A stretch of 64,000 bases of DNA, from NCBI GenBank assembly GCA_040755755.1, contig JBFLZW010000001.1, positions 186,001 to 250,000 on the forward strand, read 5' to 3'. This DNA is from a bacterium (GTDB lineage: Bacteria > SZUA-182 > DTGQ01). Position numbers and translations under genes: made by a program. Below the pieces are notes generated by a model that saw only the letters and a program-made list of their open reading frames with translations, ran no database searches and was not told where the DNA came from. This document shows, piece after piece, positions 48,831 to 57,422 of this stretch (positions are counted from its first letter, which is position 1; every line of letters begins with the position of its first letter).

Positions 48831-48870
48831 CTTGTGATTGTGCCCGATGGATAGGAAAGGGAGGAGATTG

Positions 48871-50379
48871 ATGCCGGTTCAATTACCACTTATTATTCCG
48901 CAAAAAGACCAGGCAGATCTAATACAAGAGGTGTTTTCTCACGAAAACGTTTGTCCTCAGCAGGAGCGGATTGCCCTTGAAAGAAAATATGCTCCACTCC
49001 TTAAACAGACTGATAAGTTCAGCCGTAAGCTGGTTAGCTACCAGGGCAATAAAGGTGAGGTTATCCACGGATGGATTCAATATAAGGAAGGCTTCTCATC
49101 CCAACTGGTGGAAATTTTAATCCGCAGATTCGGAATACAGCCAGGAGACACTATCCTGGACCCCTTCAGCGGTTCGGCCACTACTCTTCTGGTAGCGAAA
49201 TTTCTCGGTATCAACGCCTTTGGCATAGAGATACTTCCGCTTTGCCACCTCGCCTGGGAAGCTAAGTCGCATGTCCTGGATTATGACCTTCAAGAGCTCA
49301 GACAAGTTTATCAGCAGCTTACTCAAAGTGTGCCGAACAAAGCCTCAGAGCAATTCCCTCATATTGTCATCACGGAGACGGCCTTTCCGCCGGAAACTGA
49401 AAACGACATCATGTTTTATACTCAATGGTTTGAAAATCTGGCTATCAGCGATCCGGCCAGAACACTTTGCAGGCTTGTCGTAACGAGTATTCTCGGAGAG
49501 GTGAGCTATACCAGAAAAGATGGCCAATATTTACGGTGGGATTATCGTTCCGAGAAAATCCGGAGTCGGAATGACACGAAAATTTCTCTCGGTAAAGAGC
49601 CTATTAAAAAGGTAGATAAAGGGCCATTGCCATCAGTGAAAGAGGCACTTCTTCGGTCGTTGAAGGGTATCTTATCGGATATAGAGAAATTCCAGCAGAT
49701 CCAATCCAGAAAGAGTCATCAGGAGGATAGCCAGCAAAAATTGATTCAGGGAAACACCTTAACGGTTTTGCCCGCCTTGGCGGCAGATCAATTTTCCGGT
49801 GTCATCACTTCCCCACCATACTGTAACCGCTATGATTATACAAGGATTTACGCTCTGGAAATAGCTTATCTTCAAAGAGGCCAGGATATTCGGGAATTGC
49901 GGCAGAATCAGCTTTCCTGTACGGTCGAAAGCCATTCAAAATTGAACATATTGCAGAAATGCTACCAGTCTCTTGGCCAGCAAGATAATTACGATAAGAT
50001 CCTCAATACTGTTCAAAATCATCCTGTTTTTACTGAAATCAATGATGCCTTACAGGCAAGGTGGCAGCGTGGGGATATGAATAATAAAGGTGTTCTCAGT
50101 ATGGTAGAACAGTATTTCACCGAACTGACCTTTGTATTTGCGGAGCTTTTTCGCACATGCCGAAGCGGAGCTCATGTAGCCTTTGTGAATGATAATGTAA
50201 GGTATGGGGGTGAAGTGATTCCTGTTGACTTACTGAGTACCAGCCTGGCCGAGAATTTAGGGTTTGAGCCGGTTACGGTGTATGTTCTACCCCAAAGAAA
50301 GGGTAACAGCAGTCAGCAGATGGAGAGGTTTGGCCGCCAGGCATTACGGAAAAGTATTACTGTCTGGAAAAAGCCATAG
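48871..50379 (+). CDS. DNA methyltransferase (SPPY type, probable N4-cytosine) of a type II R-M system
   Basis: The ATG at 48871 directly follows GGGAGGAGATTG, giving 502 residues. The cofactor site reads ILDPFSGSATTLLVAKFLG (about 95-113) and the catalytic motif TSPPYCNRYDYTRIYALE (about 309-326); S/T-PPY is typical of amino methyltransferases acting on cytosine N4 or adenine N6. The order is motif I before motif IV, with a long insert between. The next gene encodes an XcyI-type endonuclease, whose known relatives work with N4-cytosine methylation, so this is the probable protecting enzyme. Base composition is lower in GC than the flanking genes, in line with transfer. Confidence 0.86.
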   Translation: MPVQLPLIIPQKDQADLIQEVFSHENVCPQQERIALERKYAPLLKQTDKFSRKLVSYQGNKGEVIHGWIQYKEGFSSQLVEILIRRFGIQPGDTILDPFSGSATTLLVAKFLGINAFGIEILPLCHLAWEAKSHVLDYDLQELRQVYQQLTQSVPNKASEQFPHIVITETAFPPETENDIMFYTQWFENLAISDPARTLCRLVVTSILGEVSYTRKDGQYLRWDYRSEKIRSRNDTKISLGKEPIKKVDKGPLPSVKEALLRSLKGILSDIEKFQQIQSRKSHQEDSQQKLIQGNTLTVLPALAADQFSGVITSPPYCNRYDYTRIYALEIAYLQRGQDIRELRQNQLSCTVESHSKLNILQKCYQSLGQQDNYDKILNTVQNHPVFTEINDALQARWQRGDMNNKGVLSMVEQYFTELTFVFAELFRTCRSGAHVAFVNDNVRYGGEVIPVDLLSTSLAENLGFEPVTVYVLPQRKGNSSQQMERFGRQALRKSITVWKKP

Positions 50380-50424
50380 AGTTAATAATCCAATCCATAC
50401 AGGTCAGAAGGTTAAGGTGTAAAA

Positions 50425-51357
50425 ATGGCCCCGCCAAGTGAAAAACAGATATGGTCAGTGGACCAGATAGCGAAAAGCGAATTCTTTCATCAAAAGCTTC
50501 ATGAATGGGAACTGCTGGAAATTGCTGACCAGCTTGACAAAATAATGGGTGAAGAGCTGGCGTGGAACAAAGCGGAAATAGAAATTTCAGATGGTGCCTG
50601 GAATAAGGTAATCCATCGGGGAATTAAACCCGTCATGGTCTTTGCTCATCCGCAAATTCTGAGAGATGTACCATGTTCAACCAGGTATTATCGAATGCTG
50701 GCTATGGTTTCCCAAAAATCTATGCACAGGGTTGGACTTTCGAGTAAGCGGCATGAGGATGGGTGTATTCCTGATTATGAAGCATCTTGTGCTATAGCTA
50801 AACACTTAAACAAAATTATCAGTAATCTGGTCGAGTCGGACGAGAAGATAGATGCGCGCGAATTCGATCTCTGGCGAGGAATGGCAGCAGGATCACAAGC
50901 TCAAGGTTCTTGGCAAAATGCGAAAGGCCAGAAAATGGAGCTCACGATAAAAGGTATCATCCGCCGCAGACTCTTTGAGAAGGGCTGGGTCTTAGCGGAA
51001 ATAGATGATACACCACGGGTGGTGTTGAGTGATAAGAGGATAGCAGCCTTTGCCGATGAGCCGGATGTTGGATTCTATGAGAATGATAGAATCATAGCTG
51101 CTGTTGAAATTAAAGGGGGAATAGACACGGCTGGTGTTTTGGAGAGACTTGGAGCGGCAATCAAAAGTCTGCGACGAGCCAAAGAAGAGAATCCGGATTC
51201 AGTTACCATACTTATCTTACAGGGTATATCCATGACTCAGCAATCGATGGTTGACCTTAAGACCAATCGAGAGGCAGTGAACTACTGGTTTACCATTGAA
51301 GAAGTACTCGATGATGAAGACAAGAGAAAGGAAATATTCAGCCTTCTCAGGATTTGA
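50425..51357 (+). CDS. XcyI-family type II restriction endonuclease
   Basis: A 310-residue protein. Its C-terminal third has EPDVGFYENDRIIAAVEIKGGID, a PD-(D/E)xK site with D (PDVGF) and ExK (EIK), and GAAIKSLRRAKEENP helix. The rest, with QKSMHRVGLSSKRHEDGCIP and FDLWRGMAAGSQAQGS, resembles the XcyI/Cfr9I/BstXI-type XcyI family that cuts CCCGGG. Identity is by recall and the specificity is an inference. It starts 45 bases after the methyltransferase stop, in the same direction, a standard R-M order. The CCCGGG sequence occurs in the window at about 36037, 46406 and 58676, so the sites must be methylated if the enzyme is active. Confidence 0.72.
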   Translation: MAPPSEKQIWSVDQIAKSEFFHQKLHEWELLEIADQLDKIMGEELAWNKAEIEISDGAWNKVIHRGIKPVMVFAHPQILRDVPCSTRYYRMLAMVSQKSMHRVGLSSKRHEDGCIPDYEASCAIAKHLNKIISNLVESDEKIDAREFDLWRGMAAGSQAQGSWQNAKGQKMELTIKGIIRRRLFEKGWVLAEIDDTPRVVLSDKRIAAFADEPDVGFYENDRIIAAVEIKGGIDTAGVLERLGAAIKSLRRAKEENPDSVTILILQGISMTQQSMVDLKTNREAVNYWFTIEEVLDDEDKRKEIFSLLRI

Positions 51358-51437: not shown

Positions 51438-51758
51438 ATGAACCCTGAAATTCAGACCATCGTGGCTGAGTTACACCGGCACTTTGAAGCGATTTATGGT
51501 GACCGACTCGTGCGGATGATACTTTTTGGTTCCCAGGCCCGTGGTGACGCCGAACCGGGGTCAGATATTGATATCATGGTAGTCCTCAGAGAGTTGGCAA
51601 GTCCAGGAAGGGAGATCTCCAGAACAGGCGAAATAACGGCTGAGCTCTCGTTGAGATATGATGTTGTAATTTCCTGCACCTTTATCTCTGCTGATTGTTA
51701 TGCAATGGAGCAAAGCCCATTGCTTTTAAATGTGCGCAGGGAGGGGGTGTCCGTATGA
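51438..51758 (+). CDS. MNT-type nucleotidyltransferase (antitoxin-like)
   Basis: A 106-residue minimal nucleotidyltransferase with LFGSQARGDAEPGSDIDIMV (Gly31-Ser32, Asp43 and Asp45). In HEPN/MNT pairs this protein blocks the HEPN RNase, in MntA by adding AMP groups to it. Its stop TGA overlaps the ATG of the following truncated HEPN gene, the usual arrangement. It comes 80 bases after the restriction enzyme gene. The protein appears intact. Confidence 0.85.
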   Translation: MNPEIQTIVAELHRHFEAIYGDRLVRMILFGSQARGDAEPGSDIDIMVVLRELASPGREISRTGEITAELSLRYDVVISCTFISADCYAMEQSPLLLNVRREGVSV

Positions 51759-51947: not shown

Positions 51948-54347
51948 CTACCTCCCCTCATCCCCCATCACCCTGTGCAGCTTCTCACTCAGCTCCTCGG
52001 CTCCGTACGGCTTGGCAACCACTTCTTTGAAACCATATTTTTTGTATTCCGACATGATGGGGGCATTGGAGTATCCGCTTGAAACGATGGCCTTGACCCC
52101 GGGGTCGATTTCCCGCAATATCCGGATAGCTTCATCGCCTCCCATGCCACCGGCAATGGTCAGGTCCAGAATGACGCAGTCGAAGGGCTGCCCGGACTCC
52201 AGGGCTTTCCGGTAAAGCCTTACCGCTTCCTCCCCCTCGATGGCAAATTCCACCTCATAGCCAAGAAAACTGAGTATATTACCGGCAACATCCCTCATGC
52301 TTTGCTCATCATCCATGAGCAGGATCCTTCCCTGGCCGGGTTGCAGTCTCTTTTTTCTAATCTCTTCCCTCGCCTTCCTGCTGATTTCCTCCCTGATCTG
52401 CTCTTCGACTGCTGGTTTTTCCTCCGGTACCGGCAGATAAAGAGAAAAGGTTGTTCCCGCTCCGGGACGGGATTCTGCGCTGACATGACCCTGGTGTCTT
52501 TTCATTACGGAATAGACAACCGCCAGTCCGAGACCGCTTCCGCCGGGTTTGGTGGTAAAATAGGGATCGAATATCTTCGGCAGGATTTCAGCCGGTATAC
52601 CTGGCCCCTGATCGATGATTGAAACTTTTACGTATCTTCCCGCCTGGAGCGGCAAACCGGCCTCCGGCCCGACAGTCACATTTTCAGCCTGTATCCTGAT
52701 TACCCCGCCTCTGGGCATAGCCTGGGCAGCATTGATTATGATGTTATGGATTGCCTGGCTGATCTGGTCCTCGTCAATCTCTGCCAGCCATAAATCTTCC
52801 GGCAGTACGAATTCGCTCCTGATTCTGGAGCCGCTCAGGGAAAAGTTGACTGCGTCCCTGAGCAGGCCGGGAACAAAGGTGGTCTTCCTGATCGGCGCTC
52901 CGCCTCTGGCAAAGGTGAGTAATTGATGGGTCAGCCTTTTGGCCTGATTCAAGGATGCGTCTCCTACTCTGGTCAATAATTTAAAATCTTCGGTTCCCGG
53001 CATAATATGCCGCTTGGCCAGAAACAGGCTGCCGCTGAGGACGGTCAGGATATTGTTGAAATCGTGGGCAATGCCGCCAGCCAGAATGCCGAGAGATTCC
53101 AGTCTCTGGGCTCTCTGGAGTTCCTCCGCTATCCTTTTTCGCTCAGTTATGTCCTTGAAATTGATGACTATGCCAATCAGCCGGCCATCGGATTGCCGCA
53201 GAGGAGTGGCGGTGAGGATGCAGGGAATTTTCCTCCCATCACGGCCTGTCAGTTCGGTATCACACTCGATACGCTGCTCGCCAGCCAAAATCCTGGGTAC
53301 CGGGCAGTCAGGGCTTCCACAGAGAATGCTGCTCAATACGTCGGAGCATCTTTTACCCACCGCTTCCTCGCTGCTCAGGCCAAGCATGAAACCCAGTGTC
53401 CGGTTAAAGCGGATCACCCGAAGCTCTCGATCGAGCACACACATTCCATCGCCTGAGGCATCGAATATCTGATTGAGCTGGGTGGAGGCGGATTCGGCTG
53501 CCTCTTCAGCCCTCCCGCGCTCGGCTATCTCCTGCCTGAGCTGTTCGTTGGCTCTGGTCAACTGGCCGGTACGCTCCCTGACCATTTCTTCGAGATGACC
53601 CCGATATCGCTCCAGTTCCTCCTCTGTCTGCTTTCGCTCAGTGATATCCAGAGTAATTCCCAGGAAAGCGGGCTTCCCGCGAAAGGGAATGGAAGCACCC
53701 CACAGGTCCACCCATCGGGGTCCATATCCACCGGGGATTACAAGGCGTATCTCACAGCACCTTGGTGCTGCTTTTCCTGCTTTCAGGTCATTCAAGTAGG
53801 CACGCACCATTTCCCGGTCATCGGGATGGACCAAATCCACGAAACACAGCTCAGTCACTTCTCCGGAGGATCGGCCAACGGTTTCCCTGAAGATGGGATT
53901 GGCATAAACCAGGAGATCATCCTGGGCGATGAAGATGCCGGACGGGCTGTTCTCGGCCAGCGCATAATACCTGCGCTCTACCTCCTGGGAGAGTCTGCGC
54001 GCCCGCAGCAGAATCTCTACCCGTGCCCGCAGCTCTATTGGAATAATAGGCATCAGGATCAATTCATCCACCGTGCGCCACAGGTGCCGGGTGATCATTC
54101 CCACATCGGGCCGGGAGGTGAGCAGCAGAAAGGGCAGATAGACCGGCTGCTCGGAATCTCTCCTGGCCTGCACCTGGTTCCAGAACCGGTCAAGGGAAAG
54201 GCCGTCCAGAATGCCGAGATCAAAAGGGCTGCTTAATTCCTCCTTCTCCTCGGCTAAAATCACCTCATATTCCCTGCTGAGCAACCCGGCCAGAAGGCGG
54301 CGGTTCTCCCTGTTTTCCATAAAAAGAAGTATCCGGTCCATGATCAC
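51948..54347 (-). CDS. Hybrid histidine kinase with degenerate N-terminal receiver, two PAS domains and C-terminal receiver
   Basis: A 799-residue cytoplasmic sensor kinase. Order: receiver-like domain (1-118) with Asp48 but without the metal-binding acid pair (ILLFMENRE in place of LVDDE) and with LMP instead of KP; PAS (about 122-238) with VHPDD and DITERK; coiled coil; second PAS (about 290-402) with KDITERK; HisKA with His428 (GGIAHDFNN); ATPase with IIINAAQA, DQGPGIP and GSGLGLA; a Lys/Arg-rich link; and a C-terminal receiver (about 680-799) with the phospho-acceptor in VILDLT and KP in VAKPYG. It has no membrane segment, so the input is intracellular. It starts at GTG overlapping the stop of the receiver gene (GTGA), in an operon with a KaiC-like gene. 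Confidence 0.9.
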   Translation of the reverse strand: MIMDRILLFMENRENRRLLAGLLSREYEVILAEEKEELSSPFDLGILDGLSLDRFWNQVQARRDSEQPVYLPFLLLTSRPDVGMITRHLWRTVDELILMPIIPIELRARVEILLRARRLSQEVERRYYALAENSPSGIFIAQDDLLVYANPIFRETVGRSSGEVTELCFVDLVHPDDREMVRAYLNDLKAGKAAPRCCEIRLVIPGGYGPRWVDLWGASIPFRGKPAFLGITLDITERKQTEEELERYRGHLEEMVRERTGQLTRANEQLRQEIAERGRAEEAAESASTQLNQIFDASGDGMCVLDRELRVIRFNRTLGFMLGLSSEEAVGKRCSDVLSSILCGSPDCPVPRILAGEQRIECDTELTGRDGRKIPCILTATPLRQSDGRLIGIVINFKDITERKRIAEELQRAQRLESLGILAGGIAHDFNNILTVLSGSLFLAKRHIMPGTEDFKLLTRVGDASLNQAKRLTHQLLTFARGGAPIRKTTFVPGLLRDAVNFSLSGSRIRSEFVLPEDLWLAEIDEDQISQAIHNIIINAAQAMPRGGVIRIQAENVTVGPEAGLPLQAGRYVKVSIIDQGPGIPAEILPKIFDPYFTTKPGGSGLGLAVVYSVMKRHQGHVSAESRPGAGTTFSLYLPVPEEKPAVEEQIREEISRKAREEIRKKRLQPGQGRILLMDDEQSMRDVAGNILSFLGYEVEFAIEGEEAVRLYRKALESGQPFDCVILDLTIAGGMGGDEAIRILREIDPGVKAIVSSGYSNAPIMSEYKKYGFKEVVAKPYGAEELSEKLHRVMGDEGR

Positions 54348-54709
54348 CGTCCGACCAGGCTGCGGATCAGGGTCAGCAGTTCCTTAACCACCAGGGGCTT
54401 GGTCAGTACTCCCCGTGCGCCGTGGCTCAGGCTCTCCTGCTGGAGGGCGTGGCTTGTTCCGGGAGAGATGATCAGAAAAGGAATCGAGGATTTTCGCAAC
54501 CGCTCGCACCGGTCCCAGATGTTCCGGTCGTAACCGGCCAGGTCGAGCAGCACCAGGTCCAGGACTTCCCCCCGGTCGAGGATTGTGTCCAATTCCTCCA
54601 GGGCGCTTACTCCCGTGACCCGATAGCCCTCTTTTGCCAGGAACTGGCTGAGCAGCTCAAGGTTGCGGGGGTTGTGGTCCACAGCCATGATCAGAGGTTT
54701 ATCCTCCAT
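54344..54709 (-). CDS. Stand-alone atypical response-regulator receiver
   Basis: A 121-residue receiver domain alone. Asp56 (LVLLDLAGYD) and Lys104 (LTKPL) are kept, but the acidic pair at the start is reduced to Asp11-His12 (AVDHNP), so metal-dependent phosphorylation may be weak. It lies between the KaiC-like ATPase gene (3 bases away) and the hybrid kinase gene (4-base overlap). The tight spacing suggests that the three proteins work together as a signalling unit. It has no output domain. Confidence 0.85.
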   Translation of the reverse strand: MEDKPLIMAVDHNPRNLELLSQFLAKEGYRVTGVSALEELDTILDRGEVLDLVLLDLAGYDRNIWDRCERLRKSSIPFLIISPGTSHALQQESLSHGARGVLTKPLVVKELLTLIRSLVGR

Positions 54710-54712
54710 CCC

Positions 54713-56176
54713 TCAGCCCTTCTCTTCTGGCGGTTTCACCCATTCCGGGGTTCCGCTCAAAATATTACGCAAACCGGTCAGGGGTTTGCCTACCTTGATC
54801 CCATAGCGGGTGATCTCGAATTCCCGCAGCCTCTTTTCAAAGTCGCTGACCCTCTTTTTCAGCACTCCAATAGCCTTGCGAAGCTCTCCATCGATCTCCA
54901 GGTAGCGCAGAAAGAGAACATTGTCCACCAGATAACTGATACTGCCTTCGCTGACCTGGAACTCGCCGGTTATATTTTTCATCTCGTCAATCAGAAGGAG
55001 GGTGACACCCATATTCACCAGGTACTTCTCAAGAGCATGGATGTTATCAGCCAGATTCTCACCATGAAGGGAAATGCAGTAGCCGCCGATACTGTCGACC
55101 ATGACCAGTTGGGTTTTCATCTCCTCCACTTCGCGACGCACCAGAGAGGCGAATTCATGAGGTGTTACCTTCAGCGGCTCTATCCTGACTATCGAAAGCG
55201 TACCATGCTCGATCATGGACCGCACCGGGATATTGACTGACTCGCTGCGATAGATGATCGTTGCCAGCATCTCCTCTCCAAAGACATAGATCATCGACCG
55301 CTCGCCTCTTCCGGCAGCCTCCTTCATGAATTGAAGGCCGAGAGTGGTTTTCCCCACCCCGCTTGGGCCGCTGATCAGGGTACTCGTGCCCCGCTCCAGC
55401 CCGCCGTGCAGCATCTCGTCCAGTTCCGGCACCCCCGAAGGGACGGTCCCGGCAGTGAACTCCCGGATATACTTTTCGGGTAAAAGGATCGGAAAGACCT
55501 CTATCCCCCGGTCAGTCAGCTTCAGGGTATGGCGGCCGGAGCGAAAGCCGGAGCCGCGAAATTTGGTCACGCTGACAGTCCTGGCCCCTTGTTCGAAGGC
55601 CAGGGTAATAACACCATCACTGATGAACTGCAGATCATCGTCAGGGGCCTGAACACTGCCCTCGGAGGTAAGAAGTACGGTAGCTCCGTTATCAATGAGA
55701 AATCGCAGGAAAGAGAGCACCTGTTTCCGAAACTGAAACGGATCGGCGGTCAGATACCGGAATTGAGTTATGGCATCCACAAAGATCCTCTGGGGCTTGA
55801 GCTTTTCAATGCTGTCGATAATAACCTGGGTAGTAGGTACCCGCTCCACCTCGGCGGGGGAGAAAATGTCGTAGGCCTCCACTTTGGCAAAGAATTCCGG
55901 CTGAGGGCTCAGGTCCAGGAAATTGACATTTTCCAGGTTAAAGCCCATAACTTGCGCATTCTTGCGGATCTGGGGTTCCGGCTCGCCCAGGGTGATGAAT
56001 AACACTTTTTCCCCCTGCTGCACACCTGCAGTGAGGAAATACAGGCCCAGGGTAGTCTTGCCATTCCCCGGCCCACCCCGTACCAGATAGGCACGCTGAG
56101 GAATCAGGCCCCCCTCGAGGATTTCATCGAGTCCCCTGATGCCGGTGGATAAACGGTCAGATAACTTGGTTTCCAT
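54713..56176 (-). CDS. KaiC-like double-domain ATPase
   Basis: The ATG at 56176, preceded by TGAGG, gives 487 residues; a longer upstream frame is less likely. Two RecA-like KaiC domains: domain 1 has Walker A GGPGNGKT (34-41) and FITLGEPEP where KaiC has its catalytic glutamates; domain 2 has GPSGVGKT (270-277) and VFGEEM (Glu301-302). The C-terminal region has VSDFEKRLREFEITRYGIKVGKPL, as in KaiC-family proteins. In cyanobacteria KaiC is a circadian phosphorylation clock with KaiA and KaiB; here neither kaiA nor kaiB is adjacent. KaiC-like proteins beside receiver and kinase genes occur in many bacteria, and their role is mostly unknown. Confidence 0.9.
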   Translation of the reverse strand: METKLSDRLSTGIRGLDEILEGGLIPQRAYLVRGGPGNGKTTLGLYFLTAGVQQGEKVLFITLGEPEPQIRKNAQVMGFNLENVNFLDLSPQPEFFAKVEAYDIFSPAEVERVPTTQVIIDSIEKLKPQRIFVDAITQFRYLTADPFQFRKQVLSFLRFLIDNGATVLLTSEGSVQAPDDDLQFISDGVITLAFEQGARTVSVTKFRGSGFRSGRHTLKLTDRGIEVFPILLPEKYIREFTAGTVPSGVPELDEMLHGGLERGTSTLISGPSGVGKTTLGLQFMKEAAGRGERSMIYVFGEEMLATIIYRSESVNIPVRSMIEHGTLSIVRIEPLKVTPHEFASLVRREVEEMKTQLVMVDSIGGYCISLHGENLADNIHALEKYLVNMGVTLLLIDEMKNITGEFQVSEGSISYLVDNVLFLRYLEIDGELRKAIGVLKKRVSDFEKRLREFEITRYGIKVGKPLTGLRNILSGTPEWVKPPEEKG

Positions 56177-56784
56177 ATACAACCTCATATTAAAATAACA
56201 TATTATTAAATATAGCACTTTTATCGCCTTGGTCTCGCTTTTATACATTTGTCGGACAAATTGCCATAAATCGATGAGATTATCCATATTGGGAGGGATC
56301 ATGGGCATGACAAGGACAAGAGTTAAGTTATTTCATGTGACAATAAAATAGCCGGTCAATGCAGGAGGACATTGACCGGCTGCCTACAGGAAGTAGAGAA
56401 AAACATGTCTATATTATTGATCGAAGAATTAACGCTATTTCTTCGCTATTTTTTTACTCTTTTAGCACTTATTAGGGGCATTTTTTAATACAATTTTCAG
56501 GCTATACGCAGCGCCTGAAAAAGCATATCGGCTGCTATAGAGGCGGGCCTGTCATAACCAATTTTCTCTACTGCAAACGGCTATGAACAGATTCGATGAT
56601 CCTGTATTCTACGTAATTAACTGTACCCCTCTACACAATTCGAAACAATAAAGGGGTTAGCGGGAGAAATACCAAACTGGAATTATGAAGCTTTTATTTG
56701 ATTATGTGGAGTTTTCACATAATCCTCGATTATGGATGCTAAAAAGTACTTGAACGGAATCCAATTAATAGCTATCATATAATT
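56177..56784. other. Divergent space between KaiC-like operon and vapBC
   Basis: About 600 AT-rich bases with the hairpin at 56350-56381. Promoters for both directions should lie here. No gene is supported. Confidence 0.55.
56350..56381. promoter_or_regulatory. 12-bp hairpin with a Shine-Dalgarno/anti-Shine-Dalgarno loop upstream of the KaiC-like gene
   Basis: AGCCGGTCAATG and CATTGACCGGCT pair perfectly around an 8-base loop that reads CAGGAGGA on the plus strand and TCCTCCTG on the minus strand. There is no T-run on the plus strand and only a weak one on the minus strand. It lies 174 bases before the KaiC-like start. Confidence 0.5.
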
Positions 56785-57006
56785 ATGAAAACTACAATTG
56801 ATATTCCAGATGATGAGTTAATGGAAGTGCTCAAACACACCGGAGCTAAGACTAAACGGGAAGCCGTTGTATATGCCATTAAAGACTATAACCGAAGACA
56901 ACGGCTTTCAAGGGTTGCCGAAATTCTGGGTACTTTCAAAGAATTCATGACCCAGGATGATCTTGAAGAAATGCGTGAAGATGATAAATGGAACAAAGAG
57001 AAGTAA
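56785..57006 (+). CDS. vapB: VapB-type antitoxin
   Basis: A 73-residue ribbon-helix-helix type protein: MKTTIDIPDDELMEVLKHTG and KTKREAVVYAIKDYNRRQR are the typical VapB (DUF2191) N-terminus, and the acidic tail (DDLEEMREDDKWNKEK) is the part that usually wraps the toxin. It overlaps the vapC start by 19 bases, so the two are co-translated. VapB normally represses its own operon. Confidence 0.85.
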   Translation: MKTTIDIPDDELMEVLKHTGAKTKREAVVYAIKDYNRRQRLSRVAEILGTFKEFMTQDDLEEMREDDKWNKEK

Positions 57007-57422
57007 TACTGATAGATACGTCCAGTTGGATTGAAGCTTTGCGAAATAATGGAAGAACAGATATTCGCGAACGGGTGAGAATGATGTTGATCAATGGTCT
57101 TGCCGTATGGTGTGATATGGTTGCCATAGAGCTTTGGAACGGTGCGAAAGGGGATTACGAAAAGAGAAAATTAACTGAATTGGAAAATGTAATAACCTCT
57201 CTCCCTATGACGAAAGAAGTGTGGAATTTTGCCCGTGAATTAACAAAGAAATGTCGAAGTGCAGGTGTGAGCGTTCCCGCTGCTGATTTAATAATAACTT
57301 CATGTGCTTTATTTTATAATATCGGAATTGAACACTGCGATAAGCATATAGGTAAAATTTTAGAAATTTTTAAATGCGGCCATGAAACTCTAGGAGGCCA
57401 TATTTCAAACTGTAAAAAGTAA
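56988..57422 (+). CDS. vapC: VapC-type PIN-domain toxin
   Basis: A 144-residue PIN nuclease. The acidic site is complete: Asp10 (LIDTSSWIE), Glu48 (AIELWNG), Asp100 (PAADLIITSCA) and Asp118 (HCDKHI). VapC toxins cut tRNA or rRNA. The neighbourhood is suggestive only: two tRNA genes start 95 bases further on, on the other strand. The pair appears intact. Confidence 0.86.
   Translation: MEQREVILIDTSSWIEALRNNGRTDIRERVRMMLINGLAVWCDMVAIELWNGAKGDYEKRKLTELENVITSLPMTKEVWNFARELTKKCRSAGVSVPAADLIITSCALFYNIGIEHCDKHIGKILEIFKCGHETLGGHISNCKK

Follow-up and report, generated by a model that had tools for sequence, protein, structure and literature searches.

A KaiC-like ATPase gene that recurs beside genes headed by a dedicated pseudo-receiver in bacteria and haloarchaea

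KaiC homologs occur widely in bacteria and archaea, in most cases unaccompanied by KaiA and often by KaiB as well. In this report, we analyzed an operon in a stretch of 64,000 nucleotides from a bacterial contig (GenBank assembly GCA_040755755.1, contig JBFLZW010000001.1, positions 186,001 to 250,000; this whole stretch is called the window). Its three genes lie on the minus strand, 3 bases apart or overlapping, and encode a KaiC-like ATPase, a lone receiver and a hybrid histidine kinase. Our main finding is that the KaiC-like gene stays beside a gene whose product starts with one particular degenerate receiver domain, designated PsR (KaiC-associated pseudo-receiver), across bacterial phyla and haloarchaea. 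The output part attached to PsR is interchangeable, and the motifs of the ATPase and of the kinase are intact. We lean towards the view that these genes form a recurrent module, independent of KaiA and KaiB, in which the KaiC-like ATPase is coupled to an output protein through its dedicated N-terminal PsR. The genes are as follows.

56176..54713, minus strand: kaiC-like double-domain ATPase, 487 amino acids (aa) from its ATG
54709..54344, minus strand: lone pseudo-receiver, 121 aa, after a 3-base gap from the kaiC-like gene
51948..54347, minus strand: hybrid histidine kinase, PsR-PAS-PAS-HisKA-HATPase-REC, 799 aa from GTG

The conserved gene pair and its exchangeable outputs

An earlier reading of the window, made from sequence only, had proposed a signalling chain of the three products and named lack of gene-order conservation as what would refute it. 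When gene order was examined, KaiC and a PsR-headed output proved to be kept together. From the KaiC side, relatives of the KaiC-like protein were gathered independently of their neighbours, giving 35 loci (46-68% identity) in cyanobacteria, a KSB1 bacterium, Nitrococcus and other gammaproteobacteria, a Halanaerobiaceae bacterium, a Sumerlaeota bacterium and a haloarchaeon. At 32 of the 35, this receiver-like domain opens either the neighbouring gene or the one after it (L059 being assigned by reading), and at 24 the lone receiver sits in the same order between KaiC and the PsR gene. The three loci outside this count are L058, which is at a contig end, L065, whose KaiC has a single domain, and L031.

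From the PsR side, a profile built from alignment A1 of this domain gave 172 bits for the KaiC-linked copy of the host's own genome versus 44 bits for its ordinary receivers; in the 23 genomes reached via the loci, KaiC-linked copies mostly scored 120-182 bits and ordinary receivers at most 54. Two Microcoleus loci (L097 and L098) hold a second kinase of 855 aa whose PsR-like N-terminus scores 79-85 bits (82-90 bits in the genome comparison) with no KaiC adjoining, probably a paralog that lost its KaiC. A KaiC of this type directly adjoins the PsR gene in 36 of the 40 loci fetched by the profile, one of which (L155) is the contig of L045 found again. The two genes may have the same, divergent or convergent orientation, divergent and convergent pairs being found in haloarchaea, and in some haloarchaea two PsR kinases come after a single KaiC (L171, L189, L191 and L197). 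Given how few of the thousands of genes encode a KaiC, we estimate chance adjacency at well under one per cent. The window itself holds the module (KaiC 815 bits, PsR 167 bits, lone receiver 170 bits).

What changes is the part that follows PsR. Pfam scans identified it as a HisKA kinase in most bacteria and as a HisKA_3 kinase in KSB1; one genome (G025) has an HWE/HisKA_2 kinase with a lower-scoring PsR, and the partner is PAS-HD-GYP at L049 and L052, GGDEF-EAL in gammaproteobacteria, GGDEF-HD-GYP in Halanaerobiaceae, BAT-HTH_10 in several haloarchaea and a SpoIIE phosphatase in one member. Compared with the other kinase members, the window protein has a mean identity of 47% in PsR and 23% in the kinase core.

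Pairwise distances of KaiC correlate with those of PsR (r 0.81 over 69 loci, permutation p 0.0005) and, over 25 loci, with those of the lone receiver (r 0.97, permutation p 0.0005); shared descent explains part of this. Since the gene association is conserved and these distances correlate, a functional chain is likely. The chain first proposed for the window stands in modified form: all three genes are present, the core is two genes, KaiC and the PsR-headed output, the lone receiver is probably accessory and the kinase is one of several interchangeable outputs.

Some KaiC-like genes in the collection are broken. At L099 (G025) the gene is apparently cut near its C-terminus by a transposase-like gene, beyond which a leftover C-terminal KaiC fragment lies beside the PsR-HWE kinase; at L158:5127-6503 (G406) it is split between the two rings by an in-frame TAG, with a receiver gene and a PsR gene coming after it. 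What looked like fusions at L156 and L186 turned out to be overlapping frames.

The ATPase and its two pseudo-receivers

The KaiC-like protein belongs to the KaiC superfamily, with two KaiC domains (PF06745, 1.5e-76, in two stretches). Its P-loops, GGPGNGKTT and GPSGVGKTT, keep the invariant residues, and the catalytic glutamates are present (E65 in CI, an EE pair in CII). At the phosphosites, Ser occupies the S431 position and Tyr that of T432; throughout this clade the Ser is kept in nearly all members and the Thr position holds Tyr, Phe or His, such that the S431/T432 pair is not retained. Against the circadian clock model TIGR02655, the protein scores 182.6 bits, below the cut-off of 546.25, as compared to 579-1036 bits for the canonical KaiCs of the same cyanobacterial genomes. 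It stops about 5 residues past the aligned part, whereas clock KaiCs run on for 20 or more. The C-terminal tail of clock KaiC binds KaiA. Judged by these sequence features, the window protein is not a clock KaiC and is without the KaiA-binding tail. In a tree the PsR-linked KaiCs, the window protein among them, are separate from the canonical clock KaiCs of the same cyanobacteria, and the sister group of the PsR-linked clade is the alphaproteobacterial plasmid KaiC.

No kai partner gene was found at the locus, and the sequence-only reading was right to this extent in describing the system as lacking KaiA and KaiB; for the genome as a whole it needs amending, as a KaiB-family gene lies on another contig. 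This gene (99 aa; 87.7 bits versus a cut-off of 27; contig C24, locus L094, C24:61000-69387) belongs to a kinase (MASE3-HisKA)-receiver-KaiB cluster, which has no KaiC within the fetched stretch and possibly represents a KaiC-free use of KaiB. The host also has a second KaiC-like protein, of 949 aa with divergent KaiC domains (L095, contig C36).

The kinase comprises four regions.

53958..54341, minus strand: PsR at the N-terminus, a receiver by profile and AlphaFold, with a long last helix into the output part
53133..53909, minus strand: two PAS domains (Pfam)
52425..53084, minus strand: HisKA (His428) and HATPase_c core, motifs intact (Pfam and motif reading)
51978..52325, minus strand: C-terminal canonical receiver, standard residues kept (Pfam)

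It has the HisKA histidine, the HATPase motifs and the receiver of a hybrid histidine kinase, and His428, as first proposed, is the correct phospho-acceptor when numbered from the GTG start. The canonical receiver at its C-terminal end is unusual among members. Its first 125 residues have no Pfam match; both profile and AlphaFold model (pLDDT 89.7, last helix of 27 residues) give a receiver fold. A pseudo-receiver is defined as a receiver fold without at least one of D, DD, T and K (PMC12632262), and PsR falls within this definition: in the window a hydrophobic residue stands at the first position of the acid pair (DD1) and Met at that of the Lys, and among 69 sequences DD1 is hydrophobic in all and the Lys nearly always lost. 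The initial impression of a kinase that begins with a receiver-like domain deprived of its acid pair was well founded. By sequence profile, PsR is closest to REC2 of PleD, and its fold matches PleD with a TM-score of up to 0.84. Response_reg scored in no module member except the C-terminal receiver of the window and one further protein, and PsR therefore lies outside the Pfam receiver model.

The lone receiver is matched by Response_reg (1.2e-11) and modelled by AlphaFold as a receiver fold (pLDDT 91.8). Its suspected loss of one metal-binding acid holds beyond the window: here D11-H12 replaces the acid pair, with D56, S82 and K104 present, and the DD2 acid position is acidic in none of 25 lone receivers (15 Arg, 3 Lys, 2 His, 3 Ser, 2 Cys), which keep Asp56 (25/25), Lys104 (25/25) and Ser/Thr82 (24/25). 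With DD2 missing throughout, the lone receiver is also a pseudo-receiver by the above definition. Profile comparison relates it to PsR (97% probability). It was not found at any sampled haloarchaeal locus, and is best read as an accessory to the module rather than part of its core.

A proposed mechanism and its alternatives

We infer a contact between KaiC and PsR, a direction of signal and a role for the lone receiver, as follows. The double-ring KaiC-like ATPase would adopt states arising from ATP hydrolysis, and perhaps from autophosphorylation of its one kept Ser. PsR, in which no phosphorylation is expected, would read these states by direct contact, serving for docking and dimerisation in the manner of PleD REC2 or the pseudo-receivers of CikA and KaiA, and would relay the change through its long last helix to the attached output. 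In the window this output would be a PAS-sensing hybrid kinase signalling through His428 and its own canonical C-terminal receiver. In bacteria, the lone pseudo-receiver may compete for the PsR contact, or complete it or co-assemble there.

More tentatively, PsR may well be a general adaptor, outside Pfam, by which bacterial and haloarchaeal KaiC-type ATPases lacking KaiA and KaiB are connected to outputs as varied as histidine kinases, enzymes of cyclic-di-GMP turnover, a transcription factor and a phosphatase, the lone pseudo-receiver being a modulator; this would be a widespread and undescribed output system. One survey concluded that, outside cyanobacteria, KaiC systems must signal by an output path other than that of Synechococcus (PMC5520375). 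Because PsR stays next to KaiC as the attached output varies, it is a concrete candidate for such a path. If the proposal is true, it would also provide a mechanism for pseudo-receivers, whose activation has been called a mystery (PMC12632262).

Several observations weigh against the proposed coupling. L031 has KaiC and the lone receiver with no PsR gene, and conversely PsR-bearing loci without an adjoining KaiC exist, namely 4 of the 40 fetched (L159, L160, L193 and L194) as well as L097/L098 and L118. The kinase core of the same genes correlates with KaiC nearly as well as PsR does (0.79 versus 0.83), and a strong claim of co-evolution was dropped on this account. Finally, the signal could run in the opposite direction, from the kinase to KaiC. 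In such a scheme the PAS/PsR proteins would sense the environment and set the ATPase or phosphorylation state of KaiC via PsR, leaving KaiC as the effector, for example by binding other regulators. The PAS or GAF sensors of many partners fit this scheme, as does the proposal that CirA, another haloarchaeal KaiC homolog, fine-tunes a transcription factor, CsmR (PMC13286277). However, several partners are output enzymes or DNA-binding proteins (GGDEF/EAL, HD-GYP, BAT-HTH_10) that are better placed downstream, and we consider the reversed direction unlikely.

It is a more doubtful proposition that the lone receiver is a true phosphorylation target of the kinase, with a weak or altered metal need, in an ordinary phosphorelay beside KaiC. 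Its Asp, Lys and Ser/Thr are conserved to the extent given above, and a histidine kinase comes next in most bacterial members; yet none of the 25 lone receivers has the acid that contacts the metal directly, 20 of them having a basic residue instead, a loss at DD2 is typical of pseudo-receivers (PMC12632262), and the members with a GGDEF-EAL partner and no kinase in the set (L056, L057, L061 and L064) still have the lone receiver. That the operon belongs to a residual KaiBC-type timing system, drawing on the KaiB-family protein of the kinase-receiver-KaiB cluster on contig C24, appears highly improbable: that protein scores well above its cut-off, but the locus has no KaiB gene, and its KaiC falls under the circadian cut-off, is without the KaiA-binding tail and belongs to a clade distinct from the canonical clock KaiCs of the same cyanobacteria. 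We give hardly any credence to the idea of a mere transfer unit, in which the genes travel together on plasmids and islands with no functional coupling. The patchy distribution, the plasmid copies and the absence of the module from the host's nearest relatives speak for it; against this, adjacency persists over very divergent loci despite varied orientation, spacing and output, and linkage alone hardly explains how PsR can be fused to unrelated outputs yet stay beside KaiC.

Related systems, distribution and surroundings of the operon

Parts of the module are already in print. KaiC-like ATPases have been described as signal transduction hubs in archaea (Makarova, Galperin and Koonin 2017, mBio, as relayed in PMC5847659 and PMC13286277), and KaiC-REC fusions in Methanosarcinaceae are reported (PMC5847659). 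These hubs, so far as they are presented in the two relaying papers, likewise tie a KaiC-like ATPase to two-component parts; the module of the window differs in consisting of separate genes, in the dedicated pseudo-receiver that heads interchangeable outputs, and in its presence in many bacteria too. In Haloferax volcanii, cirC encodes a full-length KaiC homolog (52.7 kDa) with light-dark-dependent expression and adjoins 'fixL', whose annotation is that of a sensor kinase (Maniscalco et al. 2014, PMC3941300). The likeness is that of a KaiC homolog beside a gene annotated as a sensor kinase, but no pseudo-receiver or module is described there. On a Haloferax larsenii plasmid (L197), KaiC, a PsR-kinase and a second PsR-type kinase lie in a row. 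The module can be tested in tractable organisms, of which Haloferax is the obvious one, a cirC deletion strain existing (PMC3941300). A literature search that left the Makarova 2017 survey outside its range found no description of the dedicated pseudo-receiver, of the exchangeable outputs or of the three-gene bacterial form; it is possible that parts of the module were described elsewhere, including among the haloarchaeal examples of Makarova et al. 2017.

In the Synechococcus KaiABC/SasA/CikA clock, histidine kinases also read the state of KaiC, and CikA and KaiA have pseudo-receivers. In contrast, the window module is without KaiA, KaiB and a SasA-type KaiB-like domain, and its KaiC is of another clade. 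The domain order is not that of CikA, whose pseudo-receiver is C-terminal and binds KaiB, whereas PsR is N-terminal and the C-terminal receiver of the window kinase is canonical. PleD (REC1-REC2-GGDEF) offers the REC2 domain closest to PsR in sequence, a similar fold and a helix into the output, but in the module the other receiver is a separate protein, the outputs are mostly not GGDEF, and KaiC is present. Alphaproteobacterial plasmids (Rhizobium, Agrobacterium, Sphingobium, Sinorhizobium) carry KaiC genes that overlap or abut a kinase with a degenerate N-terminal receiver-like domain; their KaiCs form the sister clade (about 39% identity) and the N-terminal domain is unmatched by the PsR profile. 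A profile-profile comparison gave the rhizobial domain a weak match (35% probability), and it was kept as a parallel and not as a PsR member. As these pairs share the arrangement with a domain that is at best distant from PsR, degenerate receivers may be coupled to KaiC more widely. At the alpha- and betaproteobacterial plasmid loci within L195-L207, the kinase N-terminus bears the motif GRDA...TEEAL...WSDLPF...ERP, and relatives of this domain occur in 217 plasmid records, mostly of Sinorhizobium and Agrobacterium.

PsR is common in haloarchaea (64 of 145 sampled genomes) but rare among bacteria. It was found in 7 of 194 cyanobacteria (at a stricter cut-off), 3 of 249 genomes from the phylum of Nitrococcus, 2 of 149 from the phylum of L060 and 7 of 386 in a broad bacterial sample, the host genome included. 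Neither the KaiC-like protein nor PsR was present in the host's nearest relatives searched, from the same genus to the same class. The KaiC-like protein has its closest relatives in cyanobacteria and unplaced bacteria, and the operon is flanked by a restriction-modification set and a toxin-antitoxin-like pair; the simplest reading is horizontal acquisition. On the side of the former lie a DNA methyltransferase (N6_N4_Mtase), an XcyI-type restriction endonuclease and a small nucleotidyltransferase (window 48838-51357 and 51438-51758); the latter pair, divergent from the operon, is VapBC-like and consists of a PIN-domain gene overlapped by a short antitoxin-like open reading frame (window 56783-57422).

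The tight spacing first reported for the genes agrees with the coordinates, which give a 3-base gap and then, with the GTG start of the kinase at 54347, a 4-base overlap (GTGA) with the lone receiver; the other option, an ATG at 54341, would leave a 2-base gap and a protein of 797 aa. An in-frame ATG upstream, at 56308, was rejected as the kaiC-like start, relatives giving it no support. One further feature lies in the 5' leader.

56350..56381, minus strand: hairpin then T-rich stretch, 174-205 bases before the start codon (ATG) of the kaiC-like gene

An Rfam search of the leader gave no family match. The leader folds better than shuffled sequences (z -2.4), and the hairpin is possibly a leader attenuator or an upstream terminator.

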